In this document: positions 16,725 to 46,906 of the stretch, in pieces | Layout: each line of letters begins with the position of its first letter | Numbering within the stretch: the stretch's first letter is position 1 | Origin: Xenophilus sp. Marseille-Q4582 | Lineage (GTDB): Bacteria; Pseudomonadota; Gammaproteobacteria; Burkholderiales; Burkholderiaceae_C | Reading direction: 5' to 3' | Assembly: GCF_916700565.1 (NCBI RefSeq) | Contig: NZ_CAKAKO010000001.1 | Location: 372,001-436,000, forward strand | DNA length: 64,000 nt | The notes under the pieces: generated by a model | Seen by the model: the letters and a program-made list of their open reading frames with translations, nothing else | Told to the model about the DNA's origin: nothing | The model's database searches: none | Position numbers and translations under genes: made by a program

Positions 16725-17818
16725 TGGGGTATCCATTTAGCTCCAGCTACCAGAGATATATGGATGTATGTCCAGTAATTTACGCCGTGGCCGTCGCCCT
16801 GGGAAGTTTGTCGACAACATCGCGATAGGTCAGCGGATCGGTGACCACGGCCTGCTCAAGCAACCGGTAGAACAGCAGCCCTCGCGAGCGCGAAGTGCGG
16901 CGGTTGAAGCGAAAGACGAATTCGTCGAGATAGGCGTCCAGGTGACCCGGTTGCACGGCGCCCTGGTGCGTACCCAACACCCAGCGCTTGACCAGCGCGG
17001 CCACGCGGTGAACGCCGACCATGGAGACGTGTGCGGGAACGTCGGAGCCCAGATGGACCGTGCGGTGGCGCACATAGCCCAGATCCGCGAGATCGCGGTA
17101 GGCGGCTGAGCCGTCGGTGCGCACCTGCGAGCCAGGCTCGACGTTGGCCAGCACGAAGGGAATGAGTTGCTCGGCCGAGGCGTTGTTGATGCGCTGCAGC
17201 CGTAGCCGGCCGAAGCCCTTGGGCTCCAGCAACTCCACGGCGATCACCACATGCGTCTGGTGGGTCTGGCTTTTTCGCCCCTTGCCTCGACCACGCGCCA
17301 CAGGTTGGATGCGGTCGCTGATCGCCAGATACGTCTCATCGACCTCGACGATGCCGTGCAGCCGCTCGCGCTCGGGTCGCACCATCGCCCTGCGCAGGCG
17401 GTGCAGCATCGTCCAGGCGGTCTGATAGCTGCCCAGTCCGAGCACCCGCTGCAGGCCCAGGGCGCTGACGCCATGCTTCTGGTTGGTCACGTACCAGGCT
17501 GCAGCCAGCCACACGCGCAGCGGTGTGCGGGTTTTCTCGAAGATCGTGCCGGCGGTCACCGTGCTCTGGACCGAGCAACTGGCGCACATCAGCCGGCCGC
17601 GACTGGAGCGATAGGGCTCAGCAGCCACGCCGCAGCGAGGGCACACGAATCCCCGTGGCCAGCGCAGCCACTCCAGGTAGTCCAGGCACGCCTGTTCGGA
17701 GACGAAGCGCTCCAGAAACTCGCTCCAGTTGCGGGGGTAGTCTTTGCCGGCCTCCGGCGCTAAAGTATGGATGGACATCCAGTACCTCCTGTTCAACTGG
17801 AGCTAGCAGGATACCCCT
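16725..17818 (-). mobile_element. IS1595-family insertion sequence, copy 1, inside the imu SOS box
   Basis: 1,094 bp. Terminal inverted repeats: GGGGTATCCATTTAGCTCC at 16726-16744 and, reversed, GGGGTATCCTGCTAGCTCC at the right end. The flanking direct repeat is TATGTCCATA (16715-16724 and 17819-17828). Palindromes of the LexA-box type lie inside both ends, at 16760-16775 and 17767-17782. One minus-strand transposase fills the element. Confidence 0.9.
16780..17778 (-). CDS. IS1595-family transposase (copy 1)
   Basis: 332 residues. The N-terminal zinc ribbon CPRCGVA...CASCS is followed by the family's HTH-like LRVWLAAAWYVTNQKHGVSALGLQ. The ISXO2-like DDE core has VEVDETYLA (first Asp), RTDGSAAYRDL (second Asp) and, near the C-terminus, VKRWVLGTHQG...AYLDEFVFRFNRR (Asn/Glu position). 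The start at 17778 is set by an AGGAGG seven bases upstream; this ribosome site and start codon lie against the subterminal LexA-like palindrome at 17767-17782. The reading frame is intact, so the element may be active. Confidence 0.92.
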   Translation of the reverse strand: MSIHTLAPEAGKDYPRNWSEFLERFVSEQACLDYLEWLRWPRGFVCPRCGVAAEPYRSSRGRLMCASCSVQSTVTAGTIFEKTRTPLRVWLAAAWYVTNQKHGVSALGLQRVLGLGSYQTAWTMLHRLRRAMVRPERERLHGIVEVDETYLAISDRIQPVARGRGKGRKSQTHQTHVVIAVELLEPKGFGRLRLQRINNASAEQLIPFVLANVEPGSQVRTDGSAAYRDLADLGYVRHRTVHLGSDVPAHVSMVGVHRVAALVKRWVLGTHQGAVQPGHLDAYLDEFVFRFNRRTSRSRGLLFYRLLEQAVVTDPLTYRDVVDKLPRATATA

Positions 17819-17831
17819 TATGTCCATACAG
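17819..17831. promoter_or_regulatory. Right fragment of the split LexA (SOS) box
   Basis: TATGTCCATA followed by CAG, the other half of the box interrupted by the IS1595 element. A GGAG ribosome site at 17838-17841 and the imuA ATG at 17851 follow directly, so the operator lay within 20 bp of the coding region. Confidence 0.75.
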
Positions 17832-17850
17832 TTAATCGGAGCCGCACACG

Positions 17851-18708
17851 ATGCCTGCCCCCCTGTCATGGGTCGGCGACGCATCGCCCGACCCCATCCC
17901 TTCACCCGCGCCGTCTCTGCGCCTGGTCGACCCCCACAGCCTGGGCCTGCCACCTCGTGTGGAGGCGGCCCTCTGGCGCGGCGACCAGATCGGCACCCCC
18001 ATCGAGCAGACCGTGCCCTCGGGCTTCGGGGCCCTGGACACGGCCTTGCCCGGCGGCGGTTGGCCCTGCCAGTCGCTCACCGAACTGCTGCAGGTCCAGC
18101 CCGCCGTGGCGGAATGGCGCCTGCTGGCTCCGGCCATGCGCGGCCTGGTCGAGCAGGGCAAGCAGATCGTCATCGTCGGTCCGCCGCGCACCCCCCATCT
18201 GCCGGGCCTGCAGCTCCAGGGCATTGATGAGCGGCACCTGGTCTGGATTCGGGCCGAGGCGCCGCTGGAGCGCCTGTGGGTCACCGAGCAACTGATCCGG
18301 GCCAATGCTGCCGGCATGGTGCTGGCCTGGCTGCCCCAGGCCCGCCAGGAACAGATCCGGCGCCTGCAGGTGTGTGCCCAGAACTGCGATGCCCCGGTCG
18401 TCCTGTGCCGGCCCATCGCAGCCGCCACCGAACCGTCTGCGGCCCCGCTGCGGCTGGAGCTGCGCTTCGGCCTGGACTGGGAGCTGCGCGTCAACGTGCT
18501 CAAGCGCAAGGGCCCGCCGCTGGAGGAAGAACTGATCCTGCCTTCTGTTCCCGCCAGCCTGGACGCCGTGCTGACCCCGCGCCTGCGCCGACCGAGCGAG
18601 CTGATCGCCTCGCGCCTGTCCCGTGACCCTCAAGAGCTTTCCCATGCTGTGGGCCGCCCTGCACCCCGATCGCCAGCAACTGCCGACCGAAGCCGCACCG
18701 CGCACTGA
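17851..18708 (+). CDS. imuA: ImuA, RecA-like translesion mutagenesis protein
   Basis: 285 residues. ImuA is a RecA/SulA-related accessory factor that works with ImuB and DnaE2 in damage-induced mutagenesis. Family features are the GFGALDTALPGGGWPCQSLTELL segment near residue 60 (in place of a true Walker A), QIVIVGPPRTPHLPGL and LVWIRAEAPLERLWVTEQLIRANAAGMVLAWLP. The C-terminal 25 residues are Arg/Pro-rich and overlap the imuB start by 65 bases. In betaproteobacteria the cassette is SOS controlled; here the SOS box directly upstream has been split by an IS1595 element, so expression is probably altered. Confidence 0.9.
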   Translation: MPAPLSWVGDASPDPIPSPAPSLRLVDPHSLGLPPRVEAALWRGDQIGTPIEQTVPSGFGALDTALPGGGWPCQSLTELLQVQPAVAEWRLLAPAMRGLVEQGKQIVIVGPPRTPHLPGLQLQGIDERHLVWIRAEAPLERLWVTEQLIRANAAGMVLAWLPQARQEQIRRLQVCAQNCDAPVVLCRPIAAATEPSAAPLRLELRFGLDWELRVNVLKRKGPPLEEELILPSVPASLDAVLTPRLRRPSELIASRLSRDPQELSHAVGRPAPRSPATADRSRTAH

Positions 18709-20026
18709 CGCCCTGCAGGGGCTGGCCACCTGGTGCCTGCAGTACACGCCGCGGGTCGCGATCCAGGAGGCATTGCTGGAGCACCCGGCCGTGGTGATGG
18801 AGGTCGAGCAGAGCGTGCGGCTCTTCGGCGGCAAGCGCCTCCTGGTCCAGCGCATCCGCGAGGCGGTGCCGGAACTCGGTGTGTCGCAGCTGAGCTGGGC
18901 GCCCAACAGCCTGGCGGCCATGGCGCTGGGCCGCGCGGGCCTGACCAACGGCTTCGCCAAGCCGCTGGCAGAAATCCTTGATGGCCTGCCGCTGCACACG
19001 CTCACGGCGGTGGCCAGGCACACCGGCGTCCTGGCGCGCATCGGTTGCCAGACCCTGGGCCAGGTGCGGGCGCTTCCGCGCGGCGGCATGTCTCGCCGCT
19101 TCGGCAAGGAGCTGCTGGCGGCCCTGGACCAAGCCTACGGCCTGCGACCCGAGGCCCATGCCTGGGTCGCCTTGCCCGAGCGCTTCCAGGCCCGGCTGGA
19201 ACTGATGGCCCGCGTTGAACACGCCCCGGCCATGCTCTTCGGCTCCCGGCGCCTGGTGCTGCAGATGGCCGGATGGCTGCAGGCCCGCCGCTGCGGCGTC
19301 ACCGCCTTCACACTGCGCTGGTGGCACGACGCCATGCGGTCCAAGGAGGCGGGGGAGGGCGGTGAGATCACCGTGCGCGCCGCCAAGCCCACCCGCGACA
19401 CCGAGCACCTGATCCGCCTGCTGGCCGAGCACCTGGACAAGGTGACGCTGCTCGCGCCGGCGGGCGACCTGGAATTGCTCGCCACCGAAGTGGTGCCGTT
19501 GCACGAAGCCAGCGCCTCGTTCCTGCCCGAGGCCCGCCAGGATGGAGAAAGCCTGGCCCTGGTCCTCGAGCGCGTGGCCGCGCGCCTGGGCCCGGACCGG
19601 GTGCTGCGCCCTGTGCTCATCGAAGACCATCGTCTCGAATGGATGTGTCGCTGGCAGCCCGCCCCCGAAAAGCGCCCCAGCGGACGCGCCGGCATCGCGG
19701 AGGGCCCGCAGCCCACCTTCATCCTGCCCACGCCCCTGCGCCTGGCCGTCAAGGACAACCGGCCGCTGTACCAAGGTGTGCTGCAACTGCTGGTCGGGCC
19801 GCATCGCATCGAAGGCGGATGGTGGGACCGGGTCAGCGAGACGCCGCCCGAAGAGGCCAGCGACGGCACCCTGGCGCTGTTCCCCAACACGCCCCTCGAA
19901 TCCACCCGCCAGGTCAGCCGCGACTACTGGGTCGCGCTGAGCGAGCATGCCGGCGTGCTGTGGGTCTTCCAGGTCCGGTTGCCGCACGGCGATCACGCCT
20001 GGTACCTGCACGGCACCTTCGCCTGA
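18644..20026 (+). CDS. imuB: ImuB, catalytically inactive Y-family polymerase homologue
   Basis: 460 residues. ImuB is the hub that binds the sliding clamp, ImuA and DnaE2. The N-terminus MLWAALHPDRQQLP is the usual ImuB start, so ATG 18644 is chosen over GTG 18623. The palm segment reads VVMEVEQSVRLFGGKRLL, lacking the paired catalytic acidic residues of active Y-family enzymes, as expected. A little-finger-like region follows (LMARVEHAPAMLFGSRRLV). The C-terminal region has LALFPNTPLE, a hydrophobic patch that could be clamp binding. It overlaps the end of imuA and is followed 18 bases later by dnaE2. Confidence 0.9.
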   Translation: MLWAALHPDRQQLPTEAAPRTDALQGLATWCLQYTPRVAIQEALLEHPAVVMEVEQSVRLFGGKRLLVQRIREAVPELGVSQLSWAPNSLAAMALGRAGLTNGFAKPLAEILDGLPLHTLTAVARHTGVLARIGCQTLGQVRALPRGGMSRRFGKELLAALDQAYGLRPEAHAWVALPERFQARLELMARVEHAPAMLFGSRRLVLQMAGWLQARRCGVTAFTLRWWHDAMRSKEAGEGGEITVRAAKPTRDTEHLIRLLAEHLDKVTLLAPAGDLELLATEVVPLHEASASFLPEARQDGESLALVLERVAARLGPDRVLRPVLIEDHRLEWMCRWQPAPEKRPSGRAGIAEGPQPTFILPTPLRLAVKDNRPLYQGVLQLLVGPHRIEGGWWDRVSETPPEEASDGTLALFPNTPLESTRQVSRDYWVALSEHAGVLWVFQVRLPHGDHAWYLHGTFA

Positions 20027-20044
20027 CAGCAGCCGAGTCCTTCC

Positions 20045-23000
20045 ATGATCCCTAAGGAGTTGCCGGCCTATGCCGAGCTGCGCTGCGTGAGCAACTTCAG
20101 CTTCCTGCGCGGAGCCAGCCAGCCCGAAGAGCTGGTCGAACGTGCCAAGCAGCTGGGCTATGCCGCCCTGGCCCTCACTGACGAATGCAGCCTGGCCGGG
20201 GTCGTGCGCGCCCATGTCGCCGCCAAGGAGCATCAACTGCGGCTGCTCATCGGCAGCCAGTTCCAGGTCCAGGACGGACCGGTTCCCTTCGTGCTCACCA
20301 TCCTGGCCTGCCATTTCGAGGGCTACGGCAACCTCTCCAGCTTCATCACCAAGCTGCGGCGGGCTTCCGAGAAAGGGAGCTACCGCCTCACGATCTCCGA
20401 CATCACCGGCGCCGAGCTGGAGGGCTGCGTGGCCATCGCCTCGCCGCAGCGCATGGCCGAGCCCGAGCAGCTGGCCGCGCTGGGCCCCTGGCTGCTCACG
20501 CACTTCACCGGGCGCTGCTGGATCGGTGTGGAGCAGCTGCGCCAGATCGATGACGAGATGTGGCTGCACCGGCTGCGCGCCCTGGGCGAGGCCACGGCCA
20601 TCCCGCTGGTGGCCTGCGGCGACGTGCATTTCCACGTGCGCTCCAGAAAACCTCTGCAGGACGTCATGACGGCCACCCGCCTGGGCAAGCCGCTCACCGA
20701 ATGCGGCCTGGCCCTGCAGCCCAATGCCGAACGGCACCTGCGCACGCGCGTGCGCCTGTCGGCCAGCTTCGCGCCGGACCTGCTGGCCCAGACCCTGCAG
20801 GTCATGGCCCGTTGCCAGTTCAGCCTGGACGAGCTGCGCTACCAGTACCCCGACGAAGTGGTGCCCGAGGGCGAGACCCCGGCCGGCTACCTGCGCCGCA
20901 TCACCTACGAAGGAGCCGGCCGACGCTGGCCCGAAGGCGTGCCCGCCAGGGCCCAGCAGCAGATCGAGTACGAGCTGGACCTGATCAGCGAGCTGAAGTA
21001 CGAGCAGTACTTCCTCACCGTCGCCGACATCGTGCGCTTCGCTCGGTCGCGGCACATCCTCTGCCAGGGCCGCGGCAGCGCGGCCAACAGCGTGGTCTGC
21101 TACTGCACCGGCGTCACCGAGGTGGACCCGGCCCGGATGAGCGTGCTCTTCGAGCGCTTCATCAGCAAGGAGCGCAACGAGCCGCCCGACATCGATATCG
21201 ACTTCGAGCACGAGCGCCGCGAAGAGGTGCTGCAGTACCTCTACAGCAAGTACGGCCGGGACCGGGCCGCCATCACGGGCGTGGTGATCAGCTACCGGCC
21301 CAAGAGCGCGATCCGGGACGTGGGCAAGGCCCTGGGCATAAGCCTGGAGCTGGTGGACGCCATTGCCAAGGCCCATCAGTGGTGGGACGGCAAGGAGGTG
21401 CGCCCCGAGCGGCTGAGCGAGCTGGGGCTGTCCACGGACTCGCTGCAGATCCAGCAGCTGCTGCAGCTCACGGGGCAGCTCATCGGCTTTCCCCGGCACC
21501 TGAGCCAGCACACGGGCGGCTTCGTGCTCACGAAGGGGCCGCTGCACCGCATGGTGCCCATCGAGAACGCCAGCATGCCCGATCGCACGGTGATCGAGTG
21601 GGACAAGGACGACCTCGATGCGCTGGGCCTCCTGAAGGTGGACTGCCTGGCCCTGGGCATGCTCACGGCGATCCGCAAGAGCCTGGACTTCATCGGCGAG
21701 CGCAAGCGCTGCCTCTTCCAGCTTCAGGACATCCCGGCCGAGGACGAGGCCACCTACGACATGATCTGCAAGGCCGACACGGTGGGCGTGTTCCAGATCG
21801 AGAGCCGGGCCCAGATGACCATGCTGCCGCGGCTGCGGCCACGCTGCTTCTACGACCTGGTGATCGAGGTGGCCATCGTGCGGCCCGGGCCCATCGTGGG
21901 TGGCATGGTGCATCCGTACCTGCGGCGGCGGCAGGGGTTGGAGCCCGTGACCTACCCCAGCGAGGCGCTCAAGGAAGCGCTGGGGCGCACTCTGGGCGTG
22001 CCGGTGTTCCAGGAGCAGGTCATGCAGATCTCGATCCTGGCCGCGGGTTTCACGCCGGGCGAGGCCGATGGGCTGCGCCGGGCCATGGCCGCCTGGCGGC
22101 GCAAGGGCGGGCTGGAGCACTACTACGCGAAGATCGTGGACGGCATGACGGCGAACGGCTACGAAGAGTCCTTTGCGCAGGCGATCTTTGAACAGATCAA
22201 GGGGTTCAGCGAATACGGCTTCCCGGAGAGCCACGCCGCCAGCTTCGCGCTGCTGGTCTACGCGAGCTGCTGGATCAAGTGCCACCACCCGGCCGAGTTC
22301 CTGGCGGCGATGCTCAACAGCCAGCCGATGGGCTTCTACTCACCGTCGCAGCTGGTCCAGGACGCGAAGCGGCACGGCGTCGAGGTGCGACCGCCGGATG
22401 TGATGCACAGCGCGGTGGACTGCAGCCTGGAGGATCTGCCGCATCCGCCGGCGGTGCGGCTGGGCCTGCGCATGATCGCGGGGCTCAAGGCCGAGTCGGC
22501 GCAGCGCATCGTGCAGGGCAGGGCGCAGGCGCCCTTTGAGAGCGCGGACGACCTCGCGCGGCGCTGCGCGCTGGAGCCGCATGAGATGAAGCTCCTGGCG
22601 GCCGCCGATGGACTGATGAGCTTGTCGGGGCACAGGCGGCAGCAGGTGTGGGATGCCGCGGCCTGGCAGCGGGCGCCGGTGTTGCTCAAGGAGGCACCGG
22701 TGGACGAGGAGGTGCTGGAGCTGCCCGAGGCGCCGGAAGGCGAAGAGATCCTCTTCGACTACGCGGCGTTGGGCCTCACCTTGCGGCGGCATCCGCTGGC
22801 CTTGCTGCGCGGCCGGCTGCGGGCCCGGAAGTTCATGACGGCGACGCAGCTGGCCCGGGTGCCCAACGGCCGGCACGTGAGCCACTGCGGCATCGTGACC
22901 TTGAGGCAGCAGCCGGACACGGCCAACGGGACGATCTTCGTGTCGCTGGAGGACGAGACGGGGGCGGTGCAGGTGATTGTCTGGAAGAGCCTGCGCGAGA

Positions 23001-23158
23001 TGCAGCGTCAAGAACTGCTGGGCGCACGGCTGATGGGGGTGCACGGCGTCTGGCAGCGGCAAGGCGAGGTCACCAGCCTCATTGCGAGACGGATCGAAGA
23101 CCTGACGCCGCTGCTGGGGCGTTTGGCCGATGCAACGGCCAGCCGAGATTTTCGGTAG
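20045..23158 (+). CDS. dnaE2: DnaE2 error-prone DNA polymerase III alpha subunit
   Basis: 1,037 residues, the normal length for DnaE2 (ImuC). The PHP domain opens with YAELRCVSNFSFLRGAS and ALALTDECSLAG. The polymerase palm holds PPDIDIDFEHERREEVL with the catalytic aspartates near residue 380. GRGSAANS, the QHTGGFVLT stretch and the tandem VFQIESRAQM, AIVRPGPI and VPVFQEQVMQI motifs follow. A C-terminal OB fold is seen at VSHCGIVTLRQQPDTANG. It performs damage-bypass synthesis with ImuA and ImuB. It starts 18 bases after imuB and is the last gene of the cassette; 187 bases without a gene follow. Confidence 0.95.
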   Translation: MIPKELPAYAELRCVSNFSFLRGASQPEELVERAKQLGYAALALTDECSLAGVVRAHVAAKEHQLRLLIGSQFQVQDGPVPFVLTILACHFEGYGNLSSFITKLRRASEKGSYRLTISDITGAELEGCVAIASPQRMAEPEQLAALGPWLLTHFTGRCWIGVEQLRQIDDEMWLHRLRALGEATAIPLVACGDVHFHVRSRKPLQDVMTATRLGKPLTECGLALQPNAERHLRTRVRLSASFAPDLLAQTLQVMARCQFSLDELRYQYPDEVVPEGETPAGYLRRITYEGAGRRWPEGVPARAQQQIEYELDLISELKYEQYFLTVADIVRFARSRHILCQGRGSAANSVVCYCTGVTEVDPARMSVLFERFISKERNEPPDIDIDFEHERREEVLQYLYSKYGRDRAAITGVVISYRPKSAIRDVGKALGISLELVDAIAKAHQWWDGKEVRPERLSELGLSTDSLQIQQLLQLTGQLIGFPRHLSQHTGGFVLTKGPLHRMVPIENASMPDRTVIEWDKDDLDALGLLKVDCLALGMLTAIRKSLDFIGERKRCLFQLQDIPAEDEATYDMICKADTVGVFQIESRAQMTMLPRLRPRCFYDLVIEVAIVRPGPIVGGMVHPYLRRRQGLEPVTYPSEALKEALGRTLGVPVFQEQVMQISILAAGFTPGEADGLRRAMAAWRRKGGLEHYYAKIVDGMTANGYEESFAQAIFEQIKGFSEYGFPESHAASFALLVYASCWIKCHHPAEFLAAMLNSQPMGFYSPSQLVQDAKRHGVEVRPPDVMHSAVDCSLEDLPHPPAVRLGLRMIAGLKAESAQRIVQGRAQAPFESADDLARRCALEPHEMKLLAAADGLMSLSGHRRQQVWDAAAWQRAPVLLKEAPVDEEVLELPEAPEGEEILFDYAALGLTLRRHPLALLRGRLRARKFMTATQLARVPNGRHVSHCGIVTLRQQPDTANGTIFVSLEDETGAVQVIVWKSLREMQRQELLGARLMGVHGVWQRQGEVTSLIARRIEDLTPLLGRLADATASRDFR

Positions 23159-23345
23159 TGGAGCGCGCGGCCATGCTGTCGTTCATGCTGTTTCGAAAGC
23201 TGTGTCGCAGTAGGTTCCGAGGGAAAGGCCGAGAGGCTCGACCTACGAGCTCTCCATGACTGTCTATCCGCAGCGGTCCGTGGGTGCTGAGTGCCAGTTC
23301 GACCGACGTGCGTTGTCTCAGAACAGCAGTGCTGTGCGCATCCCA

Positions 23346-24479
23346 CTATCTCCGGCCGAAGAACGCATCGGACCGCGCTCGGCGCTGTTCCTGTTCTCGC
23401 GCCTGTGCTGCTTCGTGCAGGGCGAAGTCCCTCATCTGTCGCATGAGCGCCCTCAGCTGCTGGACCAGCGGCGAGTCGGTGTCTTGCGAAGCCAGCAGTA
23501 TCGCGAGCCGCTCGTCACGCGCATTGGCAATGATGATCTGCGGCAGATGCGTCAGCCCAATGATGAGCTTCAACTCCTGCTCCGCAAGGCCTTGCATCCC
23601 TGGATCGTGAGCAGCTCGCCGCAGAAGCTCAAAGTACTCGACCACATGGTCACGGTCGATGAGTTCGTGCCCTGGAGGTTCCACCTCGTCAAGCATCCGG
23701 CACAGCTTGACGATCTCCGTCTTGGCTGTTTCATGCAGTGCGACGGCGGCAGCGCTCTTGCTGGAGCGCTGCTCGCTGCGCTGACCTTGGTTTGACCCGA
23801 CCTGCTGCCTGCTCGCCAGAAAGCCAGCTACACCTTCGCACAGTCGCTTGATCTCATGCGCGTCCACCAGAGTGCATTCCATGAAGGTGCGACCGTTGAT
23901 CTGGACCTTCTCCTTGAGGGCTTCGATCTCTCGCACATGGGACCACGGCAGAGCTCCTGGTTGCTGCATCAGCTCCTTGTGAAGCAACTCTTCCTCCGTG
24001 AGCATCAGGCCTTCCCTGGCACCACCCATCATGGTCGTGTCGACCAGCGCCACGATGTCCCGCACCCCTTTGCCACGACCGTAGCTTTGCAGGGCGCCCG
24101 TGAGCTTGGCAAGCGGAATGTTCGGTGCCACGAACACCCGCCGGCAACCCAGCCCGACCGAGAAGGCCTGTGTCAGCGCTTGTTTGAGCGACAACGTCGT
24201 GGAGTCAGCGGAAGCGGCAGCAGCCTGGCTCTTCTGGCTGAATCCAGATCGCGTTGCGGTTGGCCGACCTGCGCCGCGGTCGTATTGGGCCTTCCGCCCT
24301 GAATCGCTGAGGATGGCGTAGGCCGCATTGACCTCCTGCATCTTCCCGGTGGCCCACCGAGCGCCCTCGGGATCGATGTACCGGTCCGGGTGATACTGAG
24401 TCCGGCGCCCCTTGTAGGCCAGTTCAATCTCCTGCGCCGAAGCCTGCGGTCGCAGCCCCAGAATTTCGTAGGGATCCAT
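23346..24479 (-). CDS. J-domain (DnaJ-like) protein with long C-terminal region
   Basis: 377 residues from ATG 24479 (MDPYEILGLRPQA). The N-terminal 70 residues form a J domain with the obligatory HPD (TQYHPDRYIDP) that stimulates DnaK-type Hsp70. The rest (VFVAPNIPLAKLTGAL, DIVALVDTTMMGGAREGLMLTEEELLHKE, NGRTFMECTLVDAHEIKRLC) is not a DnaJ substrate domain and is of unknown function. The stretch with GLMLTEEELLH resembles bacterial domains that bind membranes or act as PH-like folds, but this is weak. It is the last gene of a four-gene minus-strand operon with exported proteins. Confidence 0.75.
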   Translation of the reverse strand: MDPYEILGLRPQASAQEIELAYKGRRTQYHPDRYIDPEGARWATGKMQEVNAAYAILSDSGRKAQYDRGAGRPTATRSGFSQKSQAAAASADSTTLSLKQALTQAFSVGLGCRRVFVAPNIPLAKLTGALQSYGRGKGVRDIVALVDTTMMGGAREGLMLTEEELLHKELMQQPGALPWSHVREIEALKEKVQINGRTFMECTLVDAHEIKRLCEGVAGFLASRQQVGSNQGQRSEQRSSKSAAAVALHETAKTEIVKLCRMLDEVEPPGHELIDRDHVVEYFELLRRAAHDPGMQGLAEQELKLIIGLTHLPQIIIANARDERLAILLASQDTDSPLVQQLRALMRQMRDFALHEAAQAREQEQRRARSDAFFGRR

Positions 24480-24489
24480 CTTCGAACGG

Positions 24490-25263: not shown

Positions 25264-25661
25264 TTGTTGCGCGGGGTGCGCATTGCCGAAGGATCGATAT
25301 AGAGGATCCGACATGTGTCCGACCCATAGATGGAGTTCAAAAGCTCACGCTTGCCCTCGTTGCTCAGCTTGTGCAGCGGCACGTCATCCTGGAAACGCTC
25401 CGTGGCCCGCATGGCATGGCGCGCCCGCTGGTCCGGGGGGACGGACTTTTCCAGTTCCAGCGCGTACTGGCGGACGTTCTCCATGGCGTTGTCCGCCTCC
25501 GTCGAGCGCCCCAACTGATAGGCGACCCGGGAACACTTGAACCCCTCGTAGAGCTTGTCCTCTGCCGCGTTGCCACAACCGACCAACGCGGCGATGGCAG
25601 CCAGCGTCAGCCCCTTGGTCCAGATGGCTCGATCCATCACCTCAGGCCGCTGCCGTTTCAT
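25260..25661 (-). CDS. Putative lipoprotein
   Basis: 133 residues from ATG 25661. The N-terminus has a lipoprotein signal with lipobox LVGC (Cys29) after a hydrophobic LTLAAIAALVG. The mature part is helical and polar (TEADNAMENVRQYALELEKSVPPDQRARHAMRATERF) with two further cysteines. No family is recognised. Translation is coupled to the preceding membrane-protein gene (TGATG) and the following exported-protein gene (ATGA). Confidence 0.65.
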   Translation of the reverse strand: MKRQRPEVMDRAIWTKGLTLAAIAALVGCGNAAEDKLYEGFKCSRVAYQLGRSTEADNAMENVRQYALELEKSVPPDQRARHAMRATERFQDDVPLHKLSNEGKRELLNSIYGSDTCRILYIDPSAMRTPRNK

Positions 25662-38848: not shown

Positions 38849-38868
38849 CGCTCTTCGGAGCGCTTTTT
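38847..38868 (+). terminator. Intrinsic terminator / leader hairpin
   Basis: Stem AGCGCTC with GAGCGCT, loop TTCG, then TTTTT. It overlaps the preceding stop codon and lies 46 bases upstream of the next ATG. Confidence 0.75.
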
Positions 38869-38913
38869 ACTTTGTGGCGCGCCGCTGCCGTGGCGGCGCG
38901 CCCGGGAACACCC

Positions 38914-39162
38914 ATGTCTTATCCCTTCACCGTCCTTTTGCTCCAACCCGACTACGAGGCCGGCGCCTTCGGTCTGGACACCTACACCGCCTTCGTGTGC
39001 ATCGACGAAGACGACCTTCAGAGAGCCTGCCGGGTCGCCCAGCTTGAAGCGCTGGCTCACCACGCTCCCAAGGAGGGCGACCTGCTCGGGGATCTGGACG
39101 ACTACGCCCCACTGTTCATGTGCCGCGGGCACGTCACCAACCTGGTCTCCCAGCTGGCTTAA
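38914..39162 (+). CDS. Small hypothetical protein
   Basis: 82 residues from ATG 38914 (MSYPFTVLLLQPDYE). Acidic, with an AFGLDTYTAFVCIDEDDLQRA strand-helix and a C-terminal LMCRGHVTNLVSQLA-like end. No family recognised. It lies between a leader hairpin and the recombinase gene in the array. Confidence 0.5.
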   Translation: MSYPFTVLLLQPDYEAGAFGLDTYTAFVCIDEDDLQRACRVAQLEALAHHAPKEGDLLGDLDDYAPLFMCRGHVTNLVSQLA

Positions 39163-39190
39163 GCCGGCGCCGCATCCATTGAGGATTCCC

Positions 39191-40261: not shown

Positions 40262-40485
40262 AGACCCTCTTCGCATGCCACTGCGGCAGCACCCTCGTGC
40301 TGCGAGATGCATACGTGGCGCTCAATGACCCGGACAACGTGCACACGTTTGACAGCCTGTGCTGCGGAGACTGCGGCTACGACGGGCACTCGGACTGGCA
40401 CCAGGTCGAACTGCCCGATGACCATGTCGACGAAGGCTGGGTCGACAAGACCCTCCTCACCCCGGCGACGCAGACGACCCTGTGA
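40258..40485 (+). CDS. Small zinc-ribbon-like hypothetical protein
   Basis: 75 residues; ATG 40258 overlaps the recombinase stop (ATGA). Cysteines are spaced CHC near residue 8 and CCGDC near 37, consistent with a small zinc site. Mostly acidic C-terminus. Function unknown. Confidence 0.5.
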   Translation: MKTLFACHCGSTLVLRDAYVALNDPDNVHTFDSLCCGDCGYDGHSDWHQVELPDDHVDEGWVDKTLLTPATQTTL

Positions 40486-40520
40486 ACGCAGAGGTCGACG
40501 CTTGGGCCACGGCCCCATCA

Positions 40521-40561
40521 AGATCCCCTCACCTTCGCGGTGAGGGGATCTTCTTCTTTTC
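40521..40561 (+). terminator. Intrinsic terminator / leader hairpin
   Basis: Perfect 13-bp stem AGATCCCCTCACC with GGTGAGGGGATCT, 5-base loop, then a T-rich tail (TCTTCTTTT). It ends 35 bases upstream of the next ATG. Confidence 0.85.
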
Positions 40562-40595
40562 TCCACCCCTCACTTATTCATTTGAAGGACCGACC

Positions 40596-41573
40596 ATGAT
40601 CAAGGGACTGGCCCTGACGCCCCCCGTGGTGGGGCGCATTTCCATTGGCAAGCTCATCACCCAGGGTGACAAGCGTCTGCCCGACAAGGACGACGAGTTC
40701 ACGGTCACCACCCAGGTGCAGACCCGGGACGGCTGGATTCCCCACCCGGTGGACCAGCAGCTGCGCAAGAGCCCAGGTGCCAAGCTGCGCAGCATCCCCG
40801 TGCGGTTGCTCTTCGACGACCCGGACCTGAACCTGCGCGCCAGGTACACGCTGTTCGATCGGGGCACCGGGCGGCCGCTGTGCGTGGGGGACGGCCAGAC
40901 CTGCCGGCGCGCCACGGCCGGCGGGATCAAGGATGCCGCGTGTCCGGCCCCGGCGAACTGCCCGCTGGGCGCGCAGGGCAACTGCAAGCCCTATGGGCGG
41001 CTGCATGTGCTCATCGGCCAGGACGACGAGGTCGGGACCTTCGTGTTCCGCACCACGGGCTTTAACAGCATCCGAACGCTGGCCACGCGGCTGCGCTACC
41101 TGCACGCGCTCTCGGGCGGACTGCTGTCGGCCTTGCCGCTGGAGCTTCGGCTGCGCGGCAAGAGCACGACGATGTCTCATCGGACGCCCATCTACTACGT
41201 GGATCTGACCATTGCGGCAGGAACCGCCACAGACCATGCCGTGGCGGCGGCCAAGCAGTTCTGGGAGGCGAGGGCCGTGAGCGGCTTTGATCAGAAGGCC
41301 CTGGACGAGGCCGCCCGCGCTGGCCTGGCGCTCGGCGAATTCGAGGACCTGGAGGACGAAGGCACGTCGGTGGTGGAGGAGTTCTACCCGGTGGACTTGG
41401 ATGCCCCGGCATCCGACGACTCGATCCGGCAGGACGCTGCTGGTGTCAGCCAGGGCAGCGAATGCCCGGGGAAGTCCCGACCGACGCTGTCTCACAAGCT
41501 CCGCCGCCGGGCGGCGCAACTTCTGCCTCCCTCGGGGGACTCGCGTCGCGAGCCCGTGCAGGCCACGGGATGA
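40596..41573 (+). CDS. Recombination-directionality-factor-like protein (Gp3-like)
   Basis: 325 residues from ATG 40596 (MIKGLALTPPVVGRISIG). The segment CPAPANCPLGAQGNCKPYGRLHVLIG with four or more cysteines and the RARYTLFDRGTGRPLCVGDG strand are typical of the Gp3-like family, whose founder is an RDF for a serine integrase; members in mobile elements are often annotated as metal-binding hydrolases. TGFNSIRTLATRLRYLHAL is also conserved. The last 35 residues (KLRRRAAQLLPPSGDSRR) look like read-through of a GC-rich intergenic repeat instead of conserved protein. It overlaps the next gene by ATGA. Confidence 0.7.
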   Translation: MIKGLALTPPVVGRISIGKLITQGDKRLPDKDDEFTVTTQVQTRDGWIPHPVDQQLRKSPGAKLRSIPVRLLFDDPDLNLRARYTLFDRGTGRPLCVGDGQTCRRATAGGIKDAACPAPANCPLGAQGNCKPYGRLHVLIGQDDEVGTFVFRTTGFNSIRTLATRLRYLHALSGGLLSALPLELRLRGKSTTMSHRTPIYYVDLTIAAGTATDHAVAAAKQFWEARAVSGFDQKALDEAARAGLALGEFEDLEDEGTSVVEEFYPVDLDAPASDDSIRQDAAGVSQGSECPGKSRPTLSHKLRRRAAQLLPPSGDSRREPVQATG

Positions 41574-42187
41574 CCACGCCACCCCGGGCGCTGCAGCACC
41601 GCTTTGTGGCGGGGCTGGGCTTTCGCACGCGCTGGACCTACCAGGCATCGGGCGGCCGGGAGCGATGGCTGCCTGCAGGCGACGGGCGATCCTCCTGCGA
41701 TGGTGGGTGGATCGTCGCTCAGCAGGCGGCTGCGTTGTGCACGGGGGCGTTGCCGCGAGCAGCCAGAGCGCGAAAGCCGAGCCTGGACGAGCAAGACGTC
41801 GCCAGTCTGCTGCAGAAGTGGATTCCGAATGCGGTGCTGCATACAAGCGCCGTGTCGCCCACTTCATCAGCCACGGAGCAGGCCCTCATCGTGAACGCGA
41901 TGTCCGCAAGGATCACCGCGGGCCACCTGGTCCTGCTTCGCCATGTCATCGGCGAGAGCTCCCCACGCTGGTGCCTGGCCAGCGGCGCGGAAATCTCTGT
42001 GTCCGCTGCAGATGGCGTCTCCGCTTTGCTGCTGCTCGACTCCGCACTGCCCCCGGTCTGGAGCTGTGGCTACAACGCGCGCCTCGACGCCGTCGCCGAC
42101 AGGCTGGTGCGGCGCACGCCGGATGGAGGCCTGGCTCAACTGCGGATCGTGTCCTGGCTGGCCGTGCTTCCCCTGCCGGCGCCTTGA
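41570..42187 (+). CDS. Hypothetical protein
   Basis: 205 residues from ATG 41570, coupled to the previous stop (ATGA). The middle has ARKPSLDEQDVASLLQKW and a hydrophobic HLVLLRHVIG; the C-terminus has VSALLLLDSALPPVWSCGYNARLDAVADRLVRRTPDGG and a LRIVSWLAVLPLPAP end. No family recognised. Likely soluble. Confidence 0.5.
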   Translation: MTTPPRALQHRFVAGLGFRTRWTYQASGGRERWLPAGDGRSSCDGGWIVAQQAAALCTGALPRAARARKPSLDEQDVASLLQKWIPNAVLHTSAVSPTSSATEQALIVNAMSARITAGHLVLLRHVIGESSPRWCLASGAEISVSAADGVSALLLLDSALPPVWSCGYNARLDAVADRLVRRTPDGGLAQLRIVSWLAVLPLPAP

Positions 42188-42323
42188 GCGAGCCGGCCCC
42201 GTGCTGGCCGCGCGCGTGAATCCAACTTCACGTGTCGACGGCCGCTCTTCTTTGTTTCTTTCATTCTCACCCGTGAGCCCGGTCGATCGACGGGGTCCTG
42301 GGTGCTTTCATCTGGAGATTCCT

Positions 42324-42632
42324 ATGCATGAAGTACCTGGGCAGGCCCCACCCAAGGGGGCGCCAAAGTTCGAGCTGGGCCGCGTGTTGATGACGCGCGG
42401 CATCCAGGCCTTGGTCATCGAAGAGCGATGTGATCCTTGGACGCTTGTGCAGCGCCATGTCATCGGCGACTGGGGGGACCTGGACGACGAGGACGGGCTT
42501 GCCAACGAAGCGTCGATTCACAACGGCGGTCGGCTGATGTCCGCCTACCGGATCGACGGCTCACTCACGGTCTGGGTCATCACCGAGGCCGGACGCGAAG
42601 TGACCACCGTCTTGCTCCCGTCGGAGTACTGA
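42324..42632 (+). CDS. Hypothetical protein of the mobile-element array
   Basis: 102 residues from ATG 42324. The compact mixed fold PKFELGRVLMTRGIQALV...SLTVWVITEAGREVTTVLLP recurs in similar elements, sometimes labelled a type I restriction subunit, which the sequence does not support: no methyltransferase motif is present. A weaker hairpin (CCCGGTCG with CGACGGGG) lies upstream near 42270-42290. A GGAG ribosome site precedes the start. Confidence 0.6.
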   Translation: MHEVPGQAPPKGAPKFELGRVLMTRGIQALVIEERCDPWTLVQRHVIGDWGDLDDEDGLANEASIHNGGRLMSAYRIDGSLTVWVITEAGREVTTVLLPSEY

Positions 42633-42656
42633 GAACACGACCAGGAGATCAATCCT

Positions 42657-43181
42657 ATGAGTCCCCTACTGAGCAACATCGAGGTGGTGATGGAACTGAT
42701 GCAGTTCAGCCGTCACGGTGCGCTGGCACAGGTGTTCATCCTCGAGGCCATCCGCAAGCAGGCGCGCCGAACGGCTGCGAGAGATCCGGCGCTGCTTGAC
42801 TCGCCCATGCTCTCGGGCAAGGCCTGGGTCGGCGTGGCCGCGGAAATCCGGGACCGGCTTGAGAAGCACTATGGCGCGGCAGAGTCCGCACCGTGGGCGC
42901 CACGCAAGCTCATGCTCTTCGCGGCGCTTCTGGCCGCCGACGAGATCACCGTGGATGACCATGAGGCTGACAAGGTGCGTCTCGCACCCTCGGGGCAGGA
43001 CCCGCAGCCCTATCTCAGCACCTGCGCAGGCGACGTCATCCTGATGAACGACCAGCCCATCGAGCTGGTCGACGACGACTGCGGCAGCCAAAGCACCTTC
43101 GTGGATGTGCAGGGTGTGACGCATCGGTTGCTGCTGCAGCACGTGGTGCGCTATCCCTTGCCGCCGTCTGCGGATGGTTGA
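42657..43181 (+). CDS. Hypothetical protein of the mobile-element array
   Basis: 174 residues from ATG 42657, 24 bases after the previous gene. Helical N-terminal half (MELMQFSRHGALAQVFILEAIRKQARR), then a helical segment with WAPRKLMLFAALLAADEITV, and a strand-rich C-terminal YLSTCAGDVILMNDQPIELVDDDC. No family recognised. Followed by a strong leader hairpin. Confidence 0.55.
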   Translation: MSPLLSNIEVVMELMQFSRHGALAQVFILEAIRKQARRTAARDPALLDSPMLSGKAWVGVAAEIRDRLEKHYGAAESAPWAPRKLMLFAALLAADEITVDDHEADKVRLAPSGQDPQPYLSTCAGDVILMNDQPIELVDDDCGSQSTFVDVQGVTHRLLLQHVVRYPLPPSADG

Positions 43182-43198
43182 GTGGGCGCCTTTGCCAT

Positions 43199-43250
43199 TG
43201 AACAGACCCCACCCGCGACAGCGGGTCTCCAGGGCTCTGTTCATTTTTTT
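43199..43250 (+). terminator. Nested intrinsic terminator / leader hairpin
   Basis: Outer stem TGAACAG with CTGTTCA encloses ACCCGC-GACA-GCGGGT; seven T residues follow at 43244-43250. It ends about 20 bases upstream of the next start. Confidence 0.8.
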
Positions 43251-43270
43251 GTTCACATTGGGAGTTGAAG

Positions 43271-43708
43271 ATGATGTTCGACACATCAAGCGGCCCGTCA
43301 GGTGGGCCCCTGTTCACAGGTTCGGGAACTCCGAGGCTCAACCGGTGGGCACGTGAGCCAGATCCAGCGCTTCGAAGCAGGACTGTGGCTCAGCCCCGCC
43401 TGCAGTCGCTGGCGCAGGAGTACGCTGCCAAACTTCGCCAGGCGGGGTACTCCGTGGCCCAGGGCGTCGCTGCGTTGCAGCAGTCTGGCAAGAGTGTGGC
43501 CGCCAGGCCTGCCGCCGCCGCTGGCGTGGCGGCGGAGATTCGGGAACTGGAAGCCATGGCGCGTGGGGTCTTTGGTGCCGATGTCGATCATTGGCTTCGG
43601 CAGCCCAATCACCTGTTGGGTGGGCATACGCCAGCGAGCATGATGTTCGCGCCGACTGGCCGGTCCAAGGTGCGGCAGCTTCTGAAGGCCTATGCGCTCG
43701 CAGCTTAG
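43271..43708 (+). CDS. MbcA/ParS/Xre antitoxin-tail (DUF2384)-like protein
   Basis: 145 residues from ATG 43271. The C-terminal VFGADVDHWLRQPNHLLGG with PASMMFAPTGRSKVRQLLKAY matches the toxin-binding tail of Xre-Res antitoxins (DUF2384): W-L-x2-PN-x2-LGG-x-P. The N-terminal half (LAQEYAAKLRQAGYSVAQGVAALQQSG) is a helix pair and not an XRE HTH. No RES or other toxin gene is next to it. A paralogue with the same layout lies at 47086. Confidence 0.6.
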   Translation: MMFDTSSGPSGGPLFTGSGTPRLNRWAREPDPALRSRTVAQPRLQSLAQEYAAKLRQAGYSVAQGVAALQQSGKSVAARPAAAAGVAAEIRELEAMARGVFGADVDHWLRQPNHLLGGHTPASMMFAPTGRSKVRQLLKAYALAA

Positions 43709-43827
43709 TGCCGGTGGCTTGGATGTGCGGGCCCCGGCCGCGTGATCGGCGGTTTCACAGCCAGCCGCAAAGTCGGCCCTAAACTGGAGTTCTTGCCCCA
43801 ATCACTTTCCCATTGAAAGCAGCCCCG

Positions 43828-44292
43828 ATGTCAGATATCCAGAAGGTGCTCCGCGAAGAGATCAGCCGCTTGGCCCGCAAGGAGGTCAAGAGCGAGATCG
43901 AGAGCTTGAAGAAGGCATCTTCTCAGCAGCGTTCCGCGATTGCCGGGTTGCGCCGTCAGATCGATGGGTTGGAGCGCCAACTCAAGCAACTGGCCAAGCA
44001 GGTCAACAGCGGCAAGCCGGCCTCCAACGCGCAGGATGCTGTCGAGGCACAGGGCGAGCCCACCCGCCGCTTCAGCGCCAAGCGCCTGGCCGCGCACCGG
44101 GCCAAGCTCGGCCTCTCCGCGGCTGCGTACGGAAAGCTGGTCAACGTCAGTGGCCAGACCATCTACAACTGGGAGCAGGGTGCGGCAAGGCCTCGGCCGG
44201 CGCAGTTGCAGGCCCTGGTGGCGGTACGCGGTGTCAGGCGCAGCGCCGCAGATGCGCTGCTGGCCGGGCACACCGAAGAAGCTACGGGCTGA
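43828..44292 (+). CDS. Coiled-coil plus XRE-like HTH protein
   Basis: 154 residues from ATG 43828 (MSDIQKVLREEISRL). The N-terminal 60 residues are a charged coiled coil (KEVKSEIESLKKASSQQRSAIAGLRRQIDGLERQLKQL). Residues about 85-130 form an XRE-type HTH: RLAAHRAKLGLSAAAYGKLVNVSGQTIYNWEQGAARPRPAQLQAL. Likely a multimeric DNA-binding regulator. The methyltransferase-like gene starts 43 bases after its stop. Confidence 0.7.
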   Translation: MSDIQKVLREEISRLARKEVKSEIESLKKASSQQRSAIAGLRRQIDGLERQLKQLAKQVNSGKPASNAQDAVEAQGEPTRRFSAKRLAAHRAKLGLSAAAYGKLVNVSGQTIYNWEQGAARPRPAQLQALVAVRGVRRSAADALLAGHTEEATG

Positions 44293-44335
44293 GTCGCCGC
44301 CGAACTTCCGATTGCCCCAGGTGCACAAGCAACCG

Positions 44336-45037
44336 ATGCCCCGAGCCGCGAAGGCGATTGCCGCGGGAACTTCCCTGGAAGCCTGGGAGGTGGAGCGCGA
44401 CAGGCTGGAAGATCTGGCGCCGTTGCTGCTGGATGCCCAAGACCGGCTTCGGGTCGTTGCGGCCGCTGAACTTGAAAGCAGCACACCGCAAGCACGGCTG
44501 CGCTTCGGGGTGACGTACGGCATCTATGGCTTTGTTACCCAGGAACTGGTGGATTGGCTGAACACCTTCATTGCTGGGCGGTCGGCCATTGAGATCGGGG
44601 CAGGCCATGGACAACTGGCTGCCGCGCTGGGCATTCCTGCCACGGACAACCGGCAGCAGGAAGAGCCTGCGGTTCGGGCGCACTACGCGGCCTTGGGCCA
44701 GCCCACGGTTCGCTATGGAGACAACGTCGAGAAGCTCGATGCCATGGCAGCGATCGCCCAGCATCGGCCCGAGGTGGTGGTGGCGTCCTGGGTGACCCAT
44801 GTCTTCCGGGCCGAACGGCCTGAAGCGGCAGGCAGTGTCTCAGGCGTGGACGAAGAGGCGGTGATCCGCAACTGCGAAGCCTATGTGTTGATCGGCAACA
44901 CGCATGTGCATCGCCACAAGTCGATCTGGTCCCTGCCGCACGAACTGTTCACCCCGCCCTGGCTGTACTCGCGCGCTGTCAACGGCAGCCCGGACTTCAT
45001 CGCGGTCTGGAAACGCTCGGGCCTGTCAAGTCCCTGA
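44336..45037 (+). CDS. SAM-dependent methyltransferase-like protein
   Basis: 233 residues from ATG 44336 (MPRAAKAIAAGTS). The Rossmann motif I AIEIGAGHGQLAAALG lies near residue 85, followed by acidic turn segments (ATDNRQQE, DNVEKLDAM) and PEVVVASWVTHVFR. The N-terminal 75 residues are helical (LEDLAPLLLDAQDRLRVVAA). The motif is close to small-molecule or nucleic-acid methyltransferases; no NPPY/DPPY catalytic motif is seen, so it is not an obvious DNA methylase. It follows the HTH gene by 43 bases and may be co-regulated. Confidence 0.65.
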   Translation: MPRAAKAIAAGTSLEAWEVERDRLEDLAPLLLDAQDRLRVVAAAELESSTPQARLRFGVTYGIYGFVTQELVDWLNTFIAGRSAIEIGAGHGQLAAALGIPATDNRQQEEPAVRAHYAALGQPTVRYGDNVEKLDAMAAIAQHRPEVVVASWVTHVFRAERPEAAGSVSGVDEEAVIRNCEAYVLIGNTHVHRHKSIWSLPHELFTPPWLYSRAVNGSPDFIAVWKRSGLSSP

Positions 45038-45224
45038 TCAATGGTCGACCGTGGTCAGACGCCAGCGAGTTGTTCGGCGTTTCTGTGGATATCTTTGTGC
45101 ACAGCGAGGGGAGGGCGCGCTCAAGGCCCAGACGGGGCGCGGATTGGCGCAGAACTGCTGTTTGCGAAGGCAGTCGGGCGAAGGTCGTGCCACGGCCCCG
45201 CGCACGGGCGGATGAAAAGACCGC

Positions 45225-45476
45225 TCAGGCCCGGCGCCAGAAGCGCCAGCGGGATCTGCGTTCCGGCTCCGGCAGAACAGCGAGGGTGTGGTCAGCCGGG
45301 GCCAGCGTCACCAGAAGAGGCGGCTGGGCCAGGCAGCGGCGCCTGACTTCCTTCTCCAATTCGTGGGCACGGCCATAGGCCGGGCGGTGCCCTTGAACTG
45401 CTTCGCGTCGCATTTCCCGCGCCATTGCCAGCAAAGCTTCATCGCTGAGGGTGCTCAGCTCCTTCTCCCACTCCAT
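45225..45476 (-). CDS. Small hypothetical protein
   Basis: 83 residues from ATG 45476 (MEWEKELSTLSDEALLAMAREMRREA). Helical N-terminus; a C-terminal strand LLVTLAPADHTLAVLP and basic RRSRWRFWRRA end. No family recognised. It is downstream of the small gene at 45575-45784 in the same direction, 98 bases apart. Confidence 0.5.
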   Translation of the reverse strand: MEWEKELSTLSDEALLAMAREMRREAVQGHRPAYGRAHELEKEVRRRCLAQPPLLVTLAPADHTLAVLPEPERRSRWRFWRRA

Positions 45477-45574
45477 CGTGTCTCGGTACCTGCCTGTGAA
45501 TCCTGTTGTGAATGAGCGACCCTGGGATGCGCAGCAGGGGCGGCATCGGCCCCAAACAACCCTGCCCCTTCTTG

Positions 45575-45784
45575 TCAGGCGCGGTGATGCCCGGCAATGA
45601 CAGTGTCTGCCATCGGGCTGAGCCAGCATTCCACCGCCTCGGCAGGGGCAAGTTGCGACAGTTCCGGGTTGCGCATCAACTCGCGGGCCGTGTCTTCAAG
45701 TTGCTGCGGATCGACCGTGCGCCAATGCAGTTGCAGGTGATGGGCAACTGCGGCGATCCAGATGCTGGGCGGTAACGGGGCCAT
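45575..45784 (-). CDS. Small hypothetical protein, probably SOS-controlled before IS insertion
   Basis: 69 residues from ATG 45784 (MAPLPPSIWIAAVAHHL). A longer start at 45832 uses bases contributed by the IS and is an artefact. Helical, with WRTVDPQQLEDTARELMRNPELSQLAP. No family recognised. Its start lies 23 bp from the position of a CTG-N10-CAG LexA-type box, which is now split by an IS1595 element; the spacing is like that of imuA and its box. SOS control is inferred from this. Confidence 0.5.
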   Translation of the reverse strand: MAPLPPSIWIAAVAHHLQLHWRTVDPQQLEDTARELMRNPELSQLAPAEAVECWLSPMADTVIAGHHRA

Positions 45785-45807
45785 GGAGGCAATCGTAGCC
45801 TCAATGG

Positions 45808-45820
45808 CTGTATATTTCAA
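45808..45820. promoter_or_regulatory. Left fragment of a second split LexA-type box
   Basis: CTG followed by TATATTTCAA. With the CAG at 46917-46919 the original site reads CTGTATATTTCAACAG, a CTG-N10-CAG LexA-type palindrome. The 10-bp spacer is duplicated on both sides of the IS1595 element. Confidence 0.7.
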
Positions 45821-46906
45821 TGGGGTATCCAATTAGCTCCAATTCGAGCCAACTGCTGGATGTTCATACAGCCATCCTACTCCGAGTTGGCAACCACGGG
45901 TTGCCGACTGACGACATCGTTGTAAGTGAGCGGATCGGTGATGACGGCTTGCTGCAGCAGCCGGTAGAACAGCAGACCACGAGAGCCGGAGGTCCGCCGG
46001 TTGAAGCGGAAGACGAACTCGTCCAGGTAGGCGTCGAGATGGCCCGGCTGGACAGCGCCATGGTGGGTTCCGAGGATCCATCGCTTGACCAGCGATGCCA
46101 CGCGATGGACGCCGACCATGGAGACGTGAGCGGGAACGTCGGAGCCCAGCATGACGGTGCGCTGGTGGGTGTAGCCGCGCTGCGTCAACGAACGGTAAGC
46201 CGCCGAGCCGTCGGTCCTCACCACGGAGCCTGGTTCGATGTTCGCCTCGACGAATGGCACGACGCAGACGTCCGCGTCGCTGTCGACGCGCTGCAGCCGG
46301 ATGCGGCCGAACCCCTTGGGCTCATGCACCTCCACCGCTATGGCGTTGAGCACCTTGCTGGTGTGGTTCCTGCCCTTGGCCTTGGAGATGGGCGCTTCAC
46401 GGTCGGTGATCGCCAGGTAGGTTTCGTCGACCTCGACCAATCCGCCCAGCCGCTCCCGATCCAGGCGGACCATCGCCTTGCGGAACCGATGCAGCATCGT
46501 CCACGCTGTCTGATAGCCACCCAGCCCCAGCACCCGCTGTAGGCCAAGCGCGCTGACCCCCAGCTTCTGGTTGGTCACGTACCAGGCGCCAGCCAGCCAC
46601 ACCCGCAGTGGCGTGCGCGTCTTGTCGAAGATCGTGCCTGCGGTGACCGTACTCTGATGGCCACAGTCTTTGCACAGCAGCCGACCGCGACTGACGCGTG
46701 AAGGCGAGGATGCGACTGCGCAACGCGGGCAGACGAACCCCTGCGGCCAACGCAACGCCTCCAGGTAGGTGAGGCAGGCCTCCTCAGTCGGAAAGCGGGC
46801 GAGAAATTCGCTCCACGTGCGCGGATAGGGGTTGACTCCGCCGGAGTCGATTGCTGTATATTTATCCAGCACTTTTTGGGCATCCTGGAGCTAACAGGAT
46901 ACCCCA
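45821..46906 (-). mobile_element. IS1595-family insertion sequence, copy 2, inside a second LexA-type box
   Basis: 1,086 bp. Ends: TGGGGTATCCAATTAGCTCC on the left (45821-45840) and, reversed, TGGGGTATCCTGTTAGCTCC on the right. The flanking 10-bp direct repeat is TATATTTCAA (45811-45820 and 46907-46916). Subterminal palindromes CTG-GATGTTCATA-CAG (45856-45871) and CTG-TATATTTATC-CAG (46854-46869) lie 35 and 37 bases from the ends. Confidence 0.9.
45877..46872 (-). CDS. IS1595-family transposase (copy 2)
   Basis: 331 residues with the same domain order as copy 1: zinc ribbon CPRCAVA...CKDCG, TNQKLGVSALGLQRVLGLG, DDE core with VEVDETYLA and RTDGSAAYRSL, then VKRWILGTHHG...YLDEFVFRFNRR. It is clearly diverged from copy 1 (for example DREAPISKAKG versus DRIQPVARGRG), so the two arrived as different members of the subgroup. 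The start is a GTG at 46872; the first codons lie inside the subterminal palindrome at 46854-46869. Catalytic residues are intact. Confidence 0.9.
   Translation of the reverse strand: MLDKYTAIDSGGVNPYPRTWSEFLARFPTEEACLTYLEALRWPQGFVCPRCAVASSPSRVSRGRLLCKDCGHQSTVTAGTIFDKTRTPLRVWLAGAWYVTNQKLGVSALGLQRVLGLGGYQTAWTMLHRFRKAMVRLDRERLGGLVEVDETYLAITDREAPISKAKGRNHTSKVLNAIAVEVHEPKGFGRIRLQRVDSDADVCVVPFVEANIEPGSVVRTDGSAAYRSLTQRGYTHQRTVMLGSDVPAHVSMVGVHRVASLVKRWILGTHHGAVQPGHLDAYLDEFVFRFNRRTSGSRGLLFYRLLQQAVITDPLTYNDVVSRQPVVANSE

Follow-up and report, generated by a model that had tools for sequence, protein, structure and literature searches.

A 64,000-nucleotide stretch of the Xenophilus sp. Marseille-Q4582 genome, from here on referred to as the window, contains two complete insertion sequences (IS) of the IS1595 family, copy 1 and copy 2. 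Within this family, the copies may belong to the ISPna2-like subgroup. The transposases of both carry Zn_ribbon_IS1595 and DDE_Tnp_IS1595 domains above the Pfam cut-offs, and both elements show inverted ends and target site duplications (TSDs) of 8 bp, the length that passages of PMC8101967 give for the IS1595 family. The repeated flank reads ATGTCCAT around copy 1 and ATATTTCA around copy 2. Restoring the uninterrupted site yields CTGT-ATGTCCAT-ACAG upstream of imuA for copy 1 and CTGT-ATATTTCA-ACAG upstream of a small open reading frame (ORF) for copy 2. Both sites are exact instances of CTGT-N8-ACAG, the LexA consensus of beta- and gammaproteobacteria according to parts of PMC13393415, and each IS splits its operator exactly.

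Table 1 Features of the two insertions, with positions counted from the first nucleotide of the window
Feature	Position	Strand	Basis or remark
Left half of split LexA operator, copy 1	16712..16723		CTGT + TSD ATGTCCAT
IS copy 1 (IS1595 family, 1096 bp)	16724..17819	-	Ends, 8-bp TSD, Pfam domains
Subterminal LexA-like box, copy 1 far end (transposase-stop side)	16760..16775		One outer triplet degenerate
Transposase, copy 1	16780..17796	-	Zn_ribbon_IS1595 + DDE_Tnp_IS1595; likely start ATG 17778-17776
Subterminal LexA-like box over copy 1 transposase start	17767..17782		One outer triplet degenerate
Right half of split operator, copy 1	17820..17831		TSD ATGTCCAT + ACAG
imuA, SOS gene behind copy 1 split operator	17851..18708	+	NCBIfam NF033429 above cut-off
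ORFs after imuA	18623-20026, 20045-23158		Order and size fit imuB and dnaE2; no name from family search
Small ORF (69 codons) adjoining copy 2	45578..45784	-	No Pfam match; related ORF beside independent insertion L032
Left half of split LexA operator, copy 2	45808..45819		CTGT + TSD ATATTTCA
IS copy 2 (IS1595 family, 1088 bp)	45820..46907	-	Ends, 8-bp TSD, Pfam domains
Subterminal LexA-like box, copy 2 far end	45856..45871		LexA score 14.4
Transposase, copy 2	45877..46872	-	ORF, Pfam domains
Subterminal LexA-like box over first codons of copy 2 transposase	46854..46869		LexA score 23.9
Right half of split operator, copy 2	46908..46919		TSD ATATTTCA + ACAG

LexA operators as targets of a transposase clade

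Relatives of the two elements were gathered from GTDB genomes (best 80 of 341 loci), other genomes, plasmids and viral contigs. This yielded 105 loci at 58% identity or more; both ends were present in 87 and flanks as well in 81, while 62 had TSDs with at most one mismatch, and 51 independent insertions were left after removal of shared sites (48 under a looser removal). CTG-N10-CAG is restored in 48 of the 51 and the exact CTGT-N8-ACAG in 38, with at most one of the eight letters off in 49 and at most two in all 51. Both CTG and CAG are present in 58 of the 62 loci. The same motif was found in 0/12 exact-TSD insertions of more distant IS1595 relatives (31-54% identity; L087, L089, L090, L097, L099, L108, L109, L112 and L124-L127, the last four being one element in one genome), whose printed flanks were inspected by eye. 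Position by position, the target logo resembles that of 28 unoccupied PA0069 and imuA promoter sites, down to the outer TA and the weakly conserved centre; two of these 28 operators were false and were excluded from later LexA scoring. Where other genomes lack the IS at a given promoter, the operator is conserved: 21/29 PA0069 promoter loci have the exact motif CTGT-N8-ACAG within 150 bp, 20 of these sites lying 0-52 bp before the start.

Within this genome, five copies were found, all in CTGT-N8-ACAG sites, and 26 intact sites of this type remain. By LexA score, the five targets rank second to sixth among all 31 such sites (Mann-Whitney p=0.0006; 0.0026 with repeated sites counted once), and the only site with a better score lies in front of a second imuA, about 85 bp from its domain match. 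The genome's own lexA promoter has a CTGT-type operator, CTGTATTTTTAACCAG. At the sequence level, the targets of this clade are thus LexA operators, far above chance and clade-wide, and the proposal of a preliminary description of the window that insertion is tied to SOS boxes holds to that extent.

In a midpoint-rooted tree of 80 transposases, elements with LexA targets fall into one clade of 64 rows (support 100/95); it should be noted that some rows have no readable target and that some inner forks are weak. Only W24, T91, A98, P283 and T323 stand out as clade-specific transposase residues (64 in-group and 8 out-group rows).

Unlike TSDs occur at 19 further loci, 11 of which kept both half-sites and 8 one. 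At L041, L057, L008 and L046, the ends of one IS are flanked by different TSDs yet by LexA half-sites on both sides, as if these copies had recombined between operators.

Subterminal boxes as a nested trait

LexA-like sites are also found inside the elements. Four subterminal motifs had been described for the window copies, and each occurs once on the plus strand: ATGGATGTATGTCCAG (16760), ATGGATGGACATCCAG (17767), CTGGATGTTCATACAG (45856) and CTGTATATTTATCCAG (46854), starting 34-36 nt inward of the GGGGTATC core at each end. The right-hand motifs touch the transposase start as had been stated, with the likely ATG of copy 1 lying inside its motif and the motif of copy 2 beginning at codon 2. 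Strings said to be common to these motifs and the targets could likewise be located: ATGTCCAT occurs as the two TSD copies at 16716 and 17820 and again on the minus strand within the right motif of copy 1 (17771), while CTGTATATTT stands at 45808 in the target and at 46854 in the right motif of copy 2. These strings are shared because boxes and targets both follow a common LexA-type consensus. As a correction, copy 1 has one degenerate outer triplet at each end, and its boxes are therefore weak LexA matches (scores of -2.0 on the start side and 6.5 at the far end); those of copy 2 score 23.9 and 14.4, respectively.

The frequency of boxes was determined for a set of 64 non-redundant transposases (clustered at 95%, sharing 58% identity or more with copy 1), with a box defined as CTG-N10-CAG with at most one of the six letters wrong at an offset of 33-36. 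Of the ends that could be read, 33 of 59 on the transposase-start side and 21 of 54 on the far side have boxes, more commonly than the chance expectation of about 0.019 per end (equal base frequencies). Three states can be distinguished: both ends boxed (the window copies and L110, the ISCsp2 copy of pCNB), start end only (for example L027, L031, L032 and L063) and none. The motifs thus stand as LexA-like sites at a fixed position in one large subclade but are absent from other targeting lineages. Copies lacking them, which had been named as evidence against the initial interpretation, do exist, but still lie in LexA-type targets (L048, L052, L061, L066, L074-L076 and L078-L081), so that boxes are not needed for targeting. 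On the tree, all boxes observed fall into a 37-row subclade (98/81) of the 64-row clade, and boxes at both ends into a nested 33-row group (99/94), inside which a 9-row group has no far-end box where this end is readable. Since boxes are nested within the targeting clade and boxless lineages occupy the same targets, operator targeting is most likely older than the boxes, which would represent a later trait. Genome G753 has a boxless element in two copies (L131 and L132), both in CTGG-N8-CCAG sites; the ORFs next to them are related, and one encodes a TnpB.

The outer letters of the boxes are like those of LexA sites, and their fourth base is usually G (93% on the start side, 73% on the far side) as opposed to T in the targets (89%). 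The promoter of E. coli cho, a LexA-controlled gene, has CTGGATAGATAACCAG, likewise with CTGG in place of CTGT, which matches the far-end box of L010 in 15 of 16 letters. Median LexA scores are 29.7 for operators, 23.1 for targets, 15.2 for far-end boxes and 2.7 for start-side boxes, with the genome's own lexA operator (15.2) and cho (10.8) as references; with an earlier matrix, boxless ends scored -16.6 and -19.1 and the 99th percentile of shuffled ends was 3.1. Inspection by eye indicates that, in many elements, the ATG at positions 5-7 of the start-side box is nothing other than the start codon. For ISCR elements, the sections of PMC13393415 consulted report that the LexA shift was lost on mutating one terminal triplet. 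SOS control of the copy 2 transposase would be plausible, that of copy 1 doubtful; the start-side boxes, on which such control would have to depend, are the lower-scoring ones.

The far end faces the neighbour gene in 18 of 23 both-boxed elements (p=0.011) compared with 5 of 15 others (Fisher p=0.008), in a hand-made set of 38 insertions with an assigned neighbour that includes some without an exact TSD and some of one element in one genome, and with a test chosen post hoc. Such a bias would be consistent with transcripts that extend from the transposase across the far-end box and on into the SOS gene. An outward far-end promoter driving the SOS gene was rejected, as 25 boxed far ends showed no outward promoter signal (mean z -0.59 from promoter weights).

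Reading of the operator

We consider it probable that a clade of IS1595-family elements targets the LexA operator, or SOS box, of beta- and gammaproteobacteria, that the transposase itself is the likeliest reader and that the boxes came later. Target specificity follows the transposase tree, needs no boxes and extends to some sites with poor LexA scores, and cleavage would fall inside the LexA footprint; for these reasons, we infer that the transposase reads the target. An 8-bp stagger between the two strand cuts, placed where CTGT and ACAG border the operator centre, would explain why the TSD is exactly this centre and why the operator is split. The transposase may act on operator DNA that is either bare or freed by LexA cleavage, with LexA being a competitor and not a guide. 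In the large box-bearing subclade, the box over the transposase start may bind LexA and thereby let it repress the transposase until DNA damage. The far-end box may affect the split SOS gene.

Several observations weigh against this interpretation. Among imuA promoters of other genomes, the exact motif CTGT-N8-ACAG lies within 150 bp in only 8/29, with no exact match in the rest. No SOS gene could be assigned beside 25 of the 51 insertions. Start-side boxes are poor LexA matches by their median score and the boxes of copy 1 are degenerate. Targets with low LexA scores are few. Further, beta- and gammaproteobacterial LexA is of the CTGT type and the named hosts all belong to these groups, except for a Sphingobium plasmid with seemingly imported copies, which makes LexA guidance indistinguishable from DNA reading. 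Of five places on this plasmid, the one inspected adjoins an IS91-type gene as in other records and so looks imported.

An extended version, to which we give limited credence, is that the IS seeks and splits SOS operators while its box-bearing subclade adds spare LexA boxes, which would leave both the invaded SOS gene and the element's own transposase under LexA.

Somewhat less likely still is guidance by LexA itself, as suggested in the preliminary description. Here, the transposase would bind LexA, and operator-bound LexA, as well as box-bound LexA where boxes are present, would recruit it. This would account for targets that match LexA operators even at weakly conserved positions, for the occupation of the most LexA-like CTGT-N8-ACAG sites of this genome and for the host range, as close relatives are found in beta- and gammaproteobacteria and in 0/385 genomes of another class of the phylum, presumably alphaproteobacteria (E up to 1e-95; search without positive control). 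Among phage records, only two distant relatives were found. However, LexA would presumably cover the very DNA being cut, some targets have low LexA scores (L066, L043 and L036) and boxes are unneeded.

The preliminary description had alternatively proposed mimicry, in which the transposase binds its own subterminal boxes and accepts look-alike targets. CTG-N10-CAG and the outer T/A letters are indeed common to boxes and targets, and L131 and L132 occupy CTGG-N8-CCAG sites in one genome, but boxless elements, these two included, have the same target type, and boxes carry CTGG where targets carry CTGT. Fixed boxes go with many targets, identical elements being found in four different targets in this genome and in three and nine for other elements. 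The similarity of a copy's own box to its own target is 11.52 of 16 letters compared with 11.25 after permutation, which is not significant (p=0.052, n=29). Pairwise mimicry was thus rejected, and mimicry in general appears very unlikely; overall, the initial interpretation is partly supported. Survivor bias, that is, loosely selective insertion with persistence only of copies at dispensable promoters, is hardly credible. Many affected genes, such as imuA and umuD, are indeed dispensable, but cut and palindrome are in register at 48/51 insertions, lexA, recA and uvrA promoters are also targeted and other IS of the family lie at unrelated sites (0/12).

Neighbouring genes, known systems and implications

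At 26 or more of the 51 independent insertions, family searches and clustering of flank ORFs identify an SOS or repair gene as neighbour. Searches covered 70 flank ORFs from 49 insertions; among the later-added L129, L130, L131 and L133, only L131 had an ORF searched. The neighbours are imuA (L001, L018, L028, L038, L081), the PA0069 radical SAM protein (L003, L007, L015, L017, L023, L030, L034), umuD (L010, L012, L019, L052), a protein linked to rSAM-UDG (L002), DinG or DinG/Rad3-like proteins (L035, L004), dnaE2 (L006, L079), recA (L013), lexA (L063), a Y-family polymerase (L014, Pfam IMS), uvrA (L076) and a UvrD-like helicase (L075). L004, L014, L023, L075, L076, L079 and L081 are among the assignments that come from short or cut ORFs, clustering alone or scores below the curated NCBIfam cut-off. 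Insertions with no assigned SOS gene adjoin, among others, a FAN1-like nuclease (L074), a DUF5131 protein (L016), a TnpB (L131) and recurrent small ORFs shared between independent insertions (L005 with L032; L027 with L037). Outside the 51, neighbours include lexA (L069), rSAM-UDG (L073), imuA (L046) and integron integrases (L026, L029), whose ORFs lie 13 and 31 nt from the IS ends.

The same type of IS91-family transposase gene adjoins both boxed and boxless elements at L039, L041, L045, L048, L050, L106 and L110, and its promoter therefore seems to be repeatedly targeted. For L039 and L048, which belong to the 51, the neighbour ORFs cluster with ORFs called IS91-type transposases by Pfam in L041 and L050.

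Elsewhere in the window, an identical 878-nt stretch occurs twice (47744-48621 and 61404-62281) and is likely another insertion sequence. The repeats enclose matches to a type III methyltransferase (50731-52392) and a restriction enzyme (52396-55098) as well as a PrimPol/helicase-like protein (58644-61355), and together with these genes perhaps form a composite unit.

The nearest named element is ISCsp2, also of the IS1595 family. Its transposase is 71% identical to that of copy 1, it has boxes at both ends (L110) and a LexA-type half-site adjoins it; it is nevertheless a different element, and the parts of PMC8406286 consulted describe no LexA targeting for it. IS that seek REP palindromes share a palindromic extragenic target, but that target, as the excerpted text of PMC1525189 has it, is a repeat element and not the operator of a transcription factor. 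ISCR elements resemble the present ones in having a CTGT-N8-ACAG LexA box in the transposase promoter. According to the same sections of PMC13393415, LexA binding was shown there and the box regulates, whereas in the present clade it is the operator that serves as insertion target, the elements' own boxes being putative and of the CTGG type. Integron integrase genes are a further case of a mobile-element gene with a LexA box, and integrases are neighbours of two insertions here; in the portions of PMC3108266 consulted they are regulated genes, not box-seeking elements. Among the papers listed by a full-text literature search, mostly outside the subscription literature, no report of IS insertion into LexA boxes appeared. 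An IS with the LexA operator as its target thus appears to be new, while IS seeking REP palindromes and LexA-controlled mobile genes are already known.

A transcription factor operator picked by the transposase would be an unusual target choice for an insertion sequence. The repeated natural insertions at SOS promoters (imuA, umuD, lexA, recA and integron integrase) imply that insertion may be a route by which SOS mutagenesis and integron activity evolve. If the spare boxes do keep gene and transposase under LexA, a mobile element would both rewire and ride on the DNA-damage regulon. Whether DNA damage both releases the transposase and opens its targets becomes a directly testable question.

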